Source of the DNA: a virus
Direction: 5' to 3' (one strand)
Length of the DNA stretch: 64,000 bases
Virus record (IMG/VR): IMGVR_UViG_3300032236_001391
Location: 1-64,000 of that record
In this document: in pieces, positions 43,772 through 49,205 of the stretch
Layout: each line of letters begins with the position of its first letter
Position numbering within the stretch: the first letter of the stretch is position 1
Program-made: the position numbers and the translations under genes
Notes under the pieces: model-generated
Seen by the model: the letters and a program-made list of their open reading frames with translations, nothing else
What the model was told of the DNA's origin: nothing
Databases searched by the model: none

Positions 43772-44087
43772 AATACGCATAACTTCTGATAAGGATAAGA
43801 TGCCTCAGATATTAAGAGATAATGAGCACAGCTTATCCATGGAAATAGTCTATAAAGTATGCCAAGCCATCGATAAAGATTTGGCATCAATAGATATTGC
43901 AGAGATAATAACTCCGGCAGAAATAATAACCATTCATTCTACAAGACCCAATTATCTAGATACATTAGAAACTAATCTACAAACTCTTATCAAATACGAA
44001 GAATATGAGGTATGCGCAATGGCAAAAACTCATATAGATTTATTGAAAGAAAAAAAATCCAAAAAATATTTGGATAATAAAAAATAA
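43752..44087 (+). CDS. Hypothetical protein
   Basis: 111 aa from ATG 43752; a TTG at 43740 would add four residues deeper in the previous gene. MGSNLFKIRITSDKDKMPQI starts a small alpha/beta protein with a basic C-terminus (LLKEKKSKKYL). It overlaps the previous gene by 20 nt and its end overlaps the tmRNA promoter. No family recognised. Confidence 0.5.
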   Translation: MGSNLFKIRITSDKDKMPQILRDNEHSLSMEIVYKVCQAIDKDLASIDIAEIITPAEIITIHSTRPNYLDTLETNLQTLIKYEEYEVCAMAKTHIDLLKEKKSKKYLDNKK

Positions 44088-44099
44088 TATTTATCTTTG
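44069..44099 (+). promoter_or_regulatory. Promoter of the tmRNA gene
   Basis: TTTG (44069-44072), 19-nt spacer, TATCTTTG (44092-44099) is an exact Bacteroidota consensus match. The tmRNA 5' end lies 19 nt after its last base, leaving a short leader for RNase P to remove. Confidence 0.7.
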
Positions 44100-44118
44100 C
44101 TTTAGTTCTTTAAAATAT

Positions 44119-44601
44119 GGGCCGGCCAGGCATTTGATTGCTATGTAAAGGGTAGTATCACACGCAGAGGAATGGTTCTCAAGCCTCTTTAATCAAGGAA
44201 CAAACTAATAAACGACAACACAAACACTCGTCAAGAAGAAGGTGCTAGCATTATCAACATGGCTTTTGCCAATGTTAGAATGGCTGTAGCAGCTTAGTTC
44301 TTTCCCTGGTAACTTGGGTGAAACAGTAAGTTACAAAATTGGTATCCATCTACCGTAAAGTGGTCACAATGATGGAACATTCCCCGCCGAGAATGTGGGT
44401 AGTCGGGGCGAATTTTTGCTAGTTTAGTAAAATTAGATGGTGGAGCGACTGTACCTAACCAGTATAGTCCCAAATTACGGTGCAGATGAACCTTGTGCTA
44501 CCGCTTACTGGTAGTAGACAAGTAGTAGTTAGTACTAAGCGTGTGAGACGTTGGTATTATGTTTTCTTAGTAAGACAGCGGTTCGATTCCGCTCCGGTCC
44601 A
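44119..44601 (+). ncRNA. ssrA: Transfer-messenger RNA (tmRNA)
   Basis: The 5' GGGCCGG (44119-44125) pairs with 3' CCGGTCC (44594-44600), with discriminator A at 44601 and CCA not encoded. A T-arm GCGGTTCGATTCCGC and a conserved ACTAAGCGTGTGAGACG 3' segment match tmRNA. The tag frame ends ...RMAVAA-stop with TAG at 44295-44297 and can be read back to AACGAC at 44211, about 28 codons, preceded by ACTAAT. Downstream are pseudoknot stems (GTAACTT/AAGTTAC and CCCCG/CGGGG). The RNA rescues stalled ribosomes and tags proteins for proteolysis. At 483 nt it is longer than most, mainly through the tag. Confidence 0.88.
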
Positions 44602-44605
44602 CGAG

Positions 44606-44663
44606 CACTTTTTGTACCTTGGGTGTATCTATAATAAAATATAGATATACCAAGGTAAAAGTG
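44606..44663 (+). terminator. Long hairpin after tmRNA, probable terminator
   Basis: CACTTTT, TACCTTGG and TATCTAT on the 5' side pair with ATAGATA, CCAAGGTA and AAAAGTG on the 3' side, giving over 20 bp with small mismatches and an A/T loop. No long T tract follows, only TAAAAAAG, so it may also protect the 3' end. Confidence 0.6.
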
Positions 44664-44717
44664 TAAAAAAGAAATTAAATAAAATATTAAAAAAATTATT
44701 TTTATACCCTATTATAT

Positions 44718-47612: not shown

Positions 47613-47680
47613 AGTCAGGTAGCGTAAAGTAACGCCTCATATTGGTATGAGAGATACAGATTCAAGTTCTGTCCTGACTA
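47613..47680 (+). tRNA. Short tRNA-like gene, identity uncertain
   Basis: 68 nt. Acceptor AGTCAGG/CCTGACT, T-arm ACAGA-TTCAAGT-TCTGT and discriminator A are canonical and shared with the next genes. The D-arm is GCGT/ACGC. The anticodon arm is CTCAT-ATTGGT-ATGAG with only six loop bases (or CTCATA/TATGAG with four), so the anticodon could be TTG (Gln) or TGG (Pro), and neither gives a normal U33 loop. It may be decayed or a decoy. Confidence 0.55.
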
Positions 47681-47697
47681 CACGGGAGGTGTTTTCT

Positions 47698-47727
47698 CTA
47701 CTTTGTCCTGCGTCCCAATCAAAGTAG
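47698..47727 (+). ncRNA. Hairpin spacer upstream of expanded tRNA-Leu
   Basis: CTACTTTG (47698-47705) and CAAAGTAG (47720-47727) pair perfectly over 8 bp around TCCTGCGTCCCAAT. GGGA (47684-47687) could pair with TCCC in the loop, forming a pseudoknot. The hairpin ends 5 nt before the next tRNA-like gene, so it may be a processing signal. Confidence 0.5.
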
Positions 47728-47732
47728 TAAAT

Positions 47733-47889
47733 AGTCAGGTGGCGGAATTGGTAGACGTAATAAAGGCTTAAGACTTTAAAGGTTGCCGACTTAGTCAATG
47801 TAAAGTAAGGGTGTCTTTTAGAGAGTAAAATCCAATGAAATACAAACTAAGTAATAGAAACCGTGCAGGTTCGAATCCTGTCCTGACTA
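47733..47889 (+). tRNA. tRNA-Leu (UAA)-like with giant variable arm
   Basis: 157 nt against about 85 for a normal tRNA-Leu. Acceptor AGTCAGG/CCTGACT, D-arm GGCGGAATTGGTAGACG and T-arm GCAGG-TTCGAAT-CCTGT are normal. The anticodon loop CTTAAGA (47767-47773) gives TAA. The variable arm begins GGTT (47781-47784), ends AACC (47859-47862) and holds about 74 nt including a perfect ACTTAGT/ACTAAGT helix (47789-47795, 47846-47852). No group I intron core fits this size, and the insertion is not in the anticodon loop. Confidence 0.65.
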
Positions 47890-48009
47890 CGAAGGGAACA
47901 TAATCTCAAGCAGCCCTAAAATGTGAATCATCTAAGTTTATCCAAACATAAAGATGTGCGACAGACGTTATAGATGCTAAGGTTGACAAACGGGGAAAGA
48001 CCCGTCCAT
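47890..48009 (+). ncRNA. Structured spacer between tRNA-like genes
   Basis: The 120-nt gap has AGGG/CCCT, a nested CATCT...AGATG around GTTT-ATCC-AAAC, and ACGGG-GAAAGA-CCCGT ending 3 nt before the next tRNA-like gene. No ORF of note. It may be a separate small RNA or processing spacer. Confidence 0.4.
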
Positions 48010-48131
48010 AGTCAGGTGGCGGAATTGGTAGACGCAGTGGTGTGTTAAATGTGGGAATAGACATAATCCCTAACCCTGAAAAGGGCTAACTGCTTGTCTC
48101 TTAGCTACAGGTTCGATTCCTGTCCTGACTA
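48010..48131 (+). tRNA. tRNA-like gene with large insertion in the anticodon region
   Basis: 122 nt. Acceptor AGTCAGG/CCTGACT, D-arm GCGGAATTGGTAGACGC and T-arm ACAGG-TTCGATT-CCTGT are intact and Leu-like. No normal anticodon arm can be drawn. Instead, GCAGT (48034-48038) pairs with ACTGC (48089-48093), enclosing GGGA/TCCC and CCCT-GAAA-AGGG (48074-48085), a GNRA tetraloop hairpin. The amino-acid identity cannot be given. Confidence 0.55.
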
Positions 48132-48144
48132 CTAAAACCAATTT

Positions 48145-48336
48145 ATGTATAAATTTAAAAAAATAGGTATAATAGGAGTAGCACTATTTTTAGTGTTATA
48201 TATTTTAAGCTCATTTATTCAAGCTAATTTAGACTGTTCTAAATGGAGTCCAGACAGCAGAGCTGTAATGTGTGGTTGGTGGGCTGTGTTTTTCATTATT
48301 TCGATAGTCGCTATTCTTGATCCACTAAAAGATTAA
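48145..48336 (+). CDS. Small two-pass membrane protein
   Basis: 63 aa. Two hydrophobic segments, IGIIGVALFLVLYILSSFI and GWWAVFFIISIVAIL, are separated by a short loop with two Cys (LDCSKWSPDSRAVMC). It starts 13 nt after a tRNA-like gene, in the RNA array. Function unknown; an ancillary holin or host membrane effector are possibilities. Confidence 0.55.
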   Translation: MYKFKKIGIIGVALFLVLYILSSFIQANLDCSKWSPDSRAVMCGWWAVFFIISIVAILDPLKD

Positions 48337-48364
48337 AAGCTTACAAGAGTTAATTTTGCATAAT

Positions 48365-48499
48365 AGTCAGGTGGCGGAAGGGTAGGGGTGTCACCCTGCC
48401 GTGGTAGACGCTAAAATAAGAGGTAGGGTAAAAGGTTGGGCATCGAAATTCCTCTTGGCCTAAAAACATCCCGTACAGGTTCGAATCCTGTCCTGACTA
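48365..48499 (+). tRNA. tRNA-like gene with insertions in both D-loop and anticodon loop
   Basis: 135 nt. Acceptor and T arms are identical to the neighbours (AGTCAGG/CCTGACT, ACAGG-TTCGAAT-CCTGT). The D-loop holds a 7-bp hairpin, GGTAGGG (48381-48387) with CCCTGCC (48394-48400) and loop GTGTCA, after which the normal TGGTAGACGC resumes. The anticodon stem AAGAGG/CCTCTT (48418-48423, 48451-48456) closes a 27-nt loop instead of 7. Two independent loop insertions argue against a single intron. Confidence 0.6.
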
Positions 48500-48542
48500 C
48501 TCTAGCGATGGTGGTAACGCGCTTTGAGATTGAAAAGTAACA

Positions 48543-48618
48543 TTTAGCCTGCAAGCTAAACTAAGTGAAAAAGTAAGTCAATAAGGAGGACAATCCCACT
48601 CGTCCCTTGCAGGGGACG
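48543..48618 (+). ncRNA. Two hairpins with fully complementary six-nucleotide loops
   Basis: Hairpin 1 is TTTAGC-CTGCAA-GCTAAA (48543-48560). Hairpin 2 is CGTCCC-TTGCAG-GGGACG (48601-48618). Both stems are perfect 6-bp helices, and the loops CTGCAA and TTGCAG are exact reverse complements, so they can form a kissing-loop complex. The pair fills the spacer between two expanded tRNA-like genes. The core TGCA is self-complementary, so dimers between molecules are also possible. Confidence 0.6.
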
Positions 48619-48623
48619 ATTAT

Positions 48624-48713
48624 AGTCAGGTGGCAGATGGTGTCACAGCTGCTTCGGTGGCTGTATCACGCTCCCTGTAATGGGGAGTTCAGGTTCGAAT
48701 CCTGTCCTGACTA
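48624..48713 (+). tRNA. tRNA-like gene with UUCG-capped hairpin in the D-loop
   Basis: 90 nt. Shared acceptor AGTCAGG/CCTGACT and T-arm around TTCGAAT. The D-loop contains ACAGCTGC (48645-48652), TTCG, GTGGCTGT (48657-48664), an 8-bp helix with two G-U pairs closed by the very stable C(UUCG)G tetraloop. The anticodon stem CTCCC/GGGAG encloses TGTAATG, giving TAA with G at position 33; a four-pair alternative gives GTA (Tyr) with U33. The variable loop is short. Confidence 0.6.
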
Positions 48714-48736
48714 CTAAACTTTAAAAATAAAATAAA

Positions 48737-49048
48737 ATGACAAGCAAAGTAAGAAGCAAAGAAGAACAAACAGTAGTCAATGAAACACAATACCCAGATC
48801 CGCAACGGCAACCACAGGAAATAGAGGAAGGTCCTGTGCCGCAGATAGAGGGACTTCTTGAAGTTTCAAACCAAAGACTATTGCGAGAATACGAAATAAC
48901 AATTCGTTTTTTGAACAGGGGTTGTATTATAAACGTAGGCTGCAAGAGCATACCGTTTGAATCAACAGACTCTGCCATTAAAGAGCTCAACGATTACTTA
49001 AGAGATCCGCGCAAATCTTCAAAGAAATGGCACGCTGTATTAGATTAG
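48737..49048 (+). CDS. Hypothetical protein
   Basis: 103 aa. A Gln/Glu/Pro-rich start (VNETQYPDPQRQPQEIEEGP) leads to a compact domain with ITIRFLNRGCIINVGCKSIP and a C-terminal helix (SAIKELNDYLRDP). It shares the opening ATGACAAGC with the gene at 49206. It lies between two tRNA-like genes. No family recognised. Confidence 0.55.
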   Translation: MTSKVRSKEEQTVVNETQYPDPQRQPQEIEEGPVPQIEGLLEVSNQRLLREYEITIRFLNRGCIINVGCKSIPFESTDSAIKELNDYLRDPRKSSKKWHAVLD

Positions 49049-49068
49049 ATTCTTAAACTAGTAGGCTT

Positions 49069-49188
49069 AGTCGGGTGGCGGAATTGGTAGACGCACAAAG
49101 AGGTGCATTAACTCTCCTTGGTAATCGTAATAAAGAAGTAAACATTTGCACCTAACGATTAATGCAGGTTCAAGTCCTGTCCTGACTA
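49069..49188 (+). tRNA. tRNA-like gene with pseudoknot-capable insertion in the anticodon loop
   Basis: 120 nt. Acceptor AGTCGGG/CCTGACT (one G-T), Leu-type D-arm GCGGAATTGGTAGACGC and T-arm GCAGG-TTCAAGT-CCTGT. AGGTGCA (49101-49107) pairs perfectly with TGCACCT (49147-49153) where the anticodon stem should be, closing a 39-nt loop. Within that loop, TAATCGT (49122-49128) is the reverse complement of ACGATTA (49155-49161) in the variable region, which makes an H-type pseudoknot. Anticodon not assignable. Confidence 0.6.
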
Positions 49189-49205
49189 CACAAAAAACAA
49201 ATAAA

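Follow-up and report, generated by a model that had tools for sequence, protein, structure and literature searches.

The DNA that we analyzed (the window) is a stretch of 64,000 nucleotides, part of a linear virus record of 67,521 bases, and carries on its plus strand a one-piece tmRNA gene (ssrA) at positions 44119-44601. The Rfam model RF00023 matches positions 44119-44604 (+) over its full length (model positions 1-374 of 374) with 65.6 bits (E = 2.5e-23), above the gathering score of 47 bits, and in the whole record this tmRNA is the only strong match to the model; ARAGORN did not detect it. Its acceptor stem is formed by GGGCCGG (44119-44125) paired with CCGGTCC (44594-44600), which yields a G3:U70 pair, the identity mark of alanine, and its T arm (AGCGG-TTCGATT-CCGCT) is intact. 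The discriminator base, A44601, is followed by CGA; hence, the CCA end is not encoded. Upstream of the gene and on the same strand lies a Bacteroidota-type promoter (44069-44100) that consists of TTTGG (44069-44073) and TATCTTTGC (44092-44100) with a 19-nt spacer, and promoters of the Bacteroidota follow the consensus TTTG-N19-21-TAnnTTTG. Directly 3' of the tmRNA, also on the plus strand, RNA folding of positions 44600-44670 predicts a terminator-like hairpin (44605-44664; -28.5 kcal/mol). With a promoter in front and a strong hairpin behind it, the tmRNA looks like a transcription unit of its own.

A reading made from the sequence alone had recognized a tmRNA at this locus, with a tag reading frame of about 28 codons from AAC at 44211, and had proposed that a covariance model be used to fix the resume codon. 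The full-model match and the intact tRNA-like ends bear out the identity of the RNA. The long frame holds up as well, but it is one codon shorter than had been supposed, since in the covariance-model alignment the resume codon falls on GAC at 44214-44216, one codon past AAC 44211, which gives a tag of 27 codons (44214-44294) followed by TAG (44295-44297): DNTNTRQEEGASIINMAFANVRMAVAA. The predicted peptide contains EGASIINMAFANVR and ends in MAVAA. Within it lie a core, G-A-x-I-I-N-M-A-F-A (44241-44270), that is common to about 40 phage tmRNA loci, and a C-terminal degron, A-V-A-A (44283-44294), whose four codons read A-[VLIM]-A-A in 29 of 32 unique relatives (pN/pS 0.29). The bases upstream of GAC 44214 read AATAA-AC-G and fit the context TAA-NN-G: among the 33 bacterial tmRNAs that we sampled, all but one from Bacteroidota (32), TAA is present in 24 and the G in all 33.

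As the outcome that would overturn it, the sequence-only reading had named a resume codon close to the stop, near a GCT AGC that it placed at 44241; this position is off by three bases, given that GGT stands at 44241 and GCT at 44244. Such a late start, at about GCT 44244 and with a tag of no more than 17 residues, could draw support from the four codons just 5' of the core (RQEE), which show no excess of synonymous change. We regard it as very unlikely, since the covariance model places the start at GAC 44214, TAA-NN-G directly precedes the predicted codon in nearly all relatives, and ARAGORN independently calls an early start in most of them. Furthermore, four relatives (L016, L119, L124, and L155) possess an in-frame TAA three to four codons 5' of the predicted resume codon and the core 3' of it. 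GAC 44214 is therefore the most likely resume codon, a placement that depends on the covariance model and the sequence context. A related locus found with a search pattern free of tag sequence (L034) encodes DNTISRQEEGARIINMAFANVEMAVAA at the equivalent place, which indicates that the tag frame is more than a chance opening.

The window encodes a T4-type family-B DNA polymerase, a DnaB-like helicase, a ribonucleotide reductase, and GroEL, and its virus is T4-like, as are part of the tag relatives. Few Shine-Dalgarno sites and TAnnTTTG promoters are characteristic of Bacteroidota. Shine-Dalgarno sites are nearly absent from the window and its relatives (3-4% of the ORFs), TAnnTTTG promoters are present in both, and the promoter motif occurs 17 times in the intergenic gaps of the window, where 6.8 occurrences are expected. 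Since, in addition, GroEL of the window is closest to that of Flavobacterium phages, the virus most likely infects Bacteroidota, a phylum that is inferred and not observed. Neither the tmRNA nor its region has any meaningful DNA similarity to annotated phages, a single-protein search with the DNA polymerase of the window gave no match, and the related cultured phages (Flavobacterium phage immuto, Bacteroides phages SJC03 and DAC19, and Microcystis phage Mel-JY01) contain no tmRNA. Elsewhere in the window (47613-49189), we observed six tRNA-like genes with a near-identical acceptor stem (AGTC[A/G]GG...CCTGACTA) and T arm whose middles (69-156 nt) differ greatly and are often oversized; several of the genes resemble tRNA-Leu with long insertions, and tRNA calls cover only some of the six.

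With a pattern that contained no tag sequence, we scanned IMG/VR for the conserved 3' segment of tmRNA and obtained at least 120 loci. Among the matches listed, ARAGORN reported 71 firm tags, the tag of L034 is near-identical to that of the window, and L016 and L119 share its core. Scans of IMG/VR with degenerate codons for the core then defined a family of about 40 loci (family A, tags with the core GAxIIxMAFA) with the consensus [D/V/A]-x(1-9)-[RH]-[QV]-x-x-G-A-x-I-I-[N/A/R]-M-A-F-A-x(1-8)-A-[VLIM]-A-A-stop, most members of which end in A-[VLIM]-A-A. The exact tag DNA of the window has no other match in IMG/VR, and tblastn found the tag peptides in no annotated phage isolate. Covariance-model searches confirmed the tmRNA in 14 of 16 larger phage records, and the two unconfirmed records (G026 and G073) contain group I introns at the tmRNA T loop. 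By locus, group I introns (86-98 bits) interrupt the T loop of family tmRNA genes in three cases, L169, L221, and L156, and possibly in L164.

Some carriers of the family A tag are T4-like, with polymerase matches at 39-47% in G016, G025, G071, and G076 and a Portal_T4 match in G024. Others are crAss-like, as judged from Crass_capsid (PF23898) in G026, the portal phrog_6547 in G026 and G073, a terminase in G073, and a major head protein in G022. A search of the large crAss-like records, which may be incomplete, did not turn up the polymerase of the T4-like group. The tag is thus common to unrelated phages, either by transfer of the tmRNA or by convergence, two possibilities that our data do not separate.

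The conservation of the core cannot be taken at face value, since the search patterns enforced its residues G, A, I, I, A, F, and A, and in the second scan M as well; the conservation of these seven or eight residues is consequently unusable as evidence. At the core codons left free (N and M), however, pN/pS is 0.24 in family A, and the third codon positions of the core vary, with a mean entropy of 1.14 bits vs. 0.28 bits at positions 1 and 2. Two further long-tag families (B and D), found without any tag sequence in the pattern, gave pN/pS values of 0.34 and 0.19, while frame-shifted controls of family B gave about 1.6. At the RQEE codons, pN/pS is about 1, so that selection at the level of the peptide can be claimed for no more of the tag than the core and the residues after it. 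Over this portion, the codon patterns imply that purifying selection is acting on the tag peptide. One might argue that the region is kept as an RNA structure or is the remnant of a pseudogene, given that the tmRNA is diverged and was overlooked by ARAGORN; with variable third codon positions and free codons at pN/pS 0.24-0.29, this view is already disfavored, and we consider it hardly tenable.

In each of 41 sampled tmRNAs from Bacteroidota the tag is 9-10 residues long (e.g., GENNYALAA and ANDYSYAMAA), a host-like type that the 27-residue tag does not meet. This comparison with host tags had been suggested on the basis of the sequence alone, as had the view that the tag is unusually long; the latter is upheld by the covariance model, the resume context, the codon-level conservation in about 40 relatives, and the shortness of the host tags. 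When about 85,000 species of bacteria and archaea were scanned with exact patterns, the family A core was found in no tmRNA, nor was it found at a tmRNA in 395 genomes of Bacteroidota scanned with a looser pattern. We also considered mimicry, either of a phage protein, as SGATIIYMAFAE occurs in a seemingly abundant tail-type protein (L213, L220, L224, L225, and L231), or of a host protein, as GARIIASAFADLGF occurs in a seemingly abundant mutase-like protein of Bacteroidota; both resemblances are best explained by chance.

We surveyed tag lengths, blind to tag sequence, in 67 phage tmRNAs with an A/V/S-type ending among the matches listed, and all shares refer to this sample. As called by ARAGORN, 36 tags among these matches comprise 7-14 residues and 31 comprise 21-31, with none between. 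Four of the "short" calls (L004, L005, L012, and L068) are mis-called long tags, and the corrected counts among the matches listed are 32 tags of 8-14 residues and 35 of at least 21, with none at 15-20. The earlier expectation that tags rarely exceed 15 residues stands for bacteria but, by these counts, fails for phages. In these four loci and in L077, ARAGORN sets the resume codon too late and shortens long tags; tag lists made with this program may accordingly under-report them. Among the matches listed, the median use of Shine-Dalgarno sites was 0.0 for long-tag loci vs. 0.30 for short-tag loci (p ~1e-8, not corrected for relatedness). About half of the sampled phage tmRNAs (among the matches listed) depart from the tag of about 10 residues, and their tags are long, family-specific, and conserved as peptides. 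A second long-tag family, TFEDAMxFVGADYAVAA (pN/pS 0.34), occurs in phages without Shine-Dalgarno sites (L013, L024, L028, L036, L040, L046, L059, L069, L074, L091, L100, L108, and L118), and further long-tag families read FWSLVN... and VDMAPSxxEADxIL....

We take as established the identity of the tmRNA, the sequence, length, and conservation of its tag, and the finding that the bacterial tmRNAs searched lack the core. On this footing, we favor, if only by somewhat better than even chances, a working phage tmRNA with a two-part tag whose conserved module is a second recognition site; the host, the use of SmpB, and the function of the module are inferences. The gene's own promoter, of Bacteroidota type, would drive transcription, and host enzymes would mature the RNA and, through alanyl-tRNA synthetase, charge it with alanine. 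SmpB is not encoded in the 27 phage records of the tag family that we searched; together with host SmpB, the phage tmRNA may rescue ribosomes stalled during infection, a trans-translation activity that is likewise inferred. Stalled proteins would then gain the 27-residue tag plus the charged alanine and would possess both the usual C-terminal degron (A-V-A-A) and the upstream module GAxIIxMAFA, which is missing from the bacterial tags searched. This module would probably be read by a protease or an adaptor of the infected cell, no partner having been identified, and the route or the rate of breakdown of the tagged fragments might then differ from that set by the host tag of 9-10 residues. No neighbor gene that might encode an adaptor is common to the surroundings of the family tmRNAs, and the core displays no amphipathic helix or strand pattern. 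A phage ClpP as dedicated protease was rejected, as all but 2 of 27 records lack it. The two family phages that encode a ClpP-like protease are L170 and L171.

That the tmRNA is an ordinary one with an ordinary ClpXP degron, its extra residues being a functionless spacer, would agree with the standard SsrA ending A-V-A-A and with the free variation of the residues 5' of the core between relatives. We nevertheless find this improbable: unrelated groups of phages retain GAxIIxMAFA although its codons vary, tag lengths are bimodal with none at 15-20 residues among the matches listed, and other long-tag families are under peptide-level selection as well. Since dozens of phages that are otherwise unrelated keep the core and the bacterial tmRNAs searched lack it, the core probably has a job of its own in infection. 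This job need not be proteolytic. The core might target proteins to a place or partner, occupy or inhibit a host protease or adaptor, or counter a defense protein, and its restriction to phages in our searches and its presence in unrelated phages with probably similar hosts would suit such a role; the degradation-type ending A-[VLIM]-A-A is, however, retained in 29 of 32 unique relatives, and we rate a non-proteolytic core as unlikely, albeit less so than a mere spacer. The suggestion made from the sequence alone, an altered protease route or a second function, fits the conserved core, whose function is untested.

Returning to the two-part tag as a recognition signal, we put forward a wider proposal, tentatively and at somewhat less than even odds: in Bacteroidota phages of at least two unrelated lineages (T4-like and crAss-like), tmRNAs carry long tags of several conserved families (GAxIIxMAFA, TFEDAMxFVGADYA, FWSLVN..., and VDMAPSxxEADxIL...), and the upstream module diverts the products of trans-translation to a protease or a destination to which host tags do not lead. 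The structured departure of the sampled phage tags from the usual length allows a direct test of whether phages reprogram ribosome rescue or merely supplement it, and the long tags are candidate new degrons.

The SsrA tag is a textbook case of a degron that is short (about 10 residues) and conserved. The phage RNA shares with standard one-piece bacterial tmRNAs (RF00023), such as those of Bacteroidota, the full model, the G3:U70 pair, the T arm, the TAA-NN-G context, and a C-terminal A-x-A-A; it differs in its length (483 nt, compared with about 350-405 nt), in its tag of 27 instead of 9-10 residues, and in a core that the bacterial tags searched lack. According to one report, 10 residues is the commonest tag length and 2 residues is extremely short (PMC11915505). 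Virus-encoded tmRNAs that rely on host factors are described for mycobacteriophages, Bacillus phage G, and marine phages such as Melnitz (PMC4131195, PMC9004378). The tmRNA of the window resembles these in being virus-encoded and, by inference, dependent on host factors; within the accessible portions of the open-access literature, which excludes subscription papers and preprints, phage tmRNAs are reported without any description of long conserved tags. Tags of comparable length (about 26-27 residues) are found in Mollicutes (Mycoplasma/Mesoplasma); they have another sequence and, with a -YAFA ending, are not known to carry A-V-A-A, and the likely hosts here are not Mollicutes. These long tags are degraded by Lon, ClpXP being absent (PMC8138137). 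In both their length class and the link between a longer tag and a different protease, the Lon-linked tags of Mollicutes are, by analogy, the closest precedent for a tag that has changed along with its protease.
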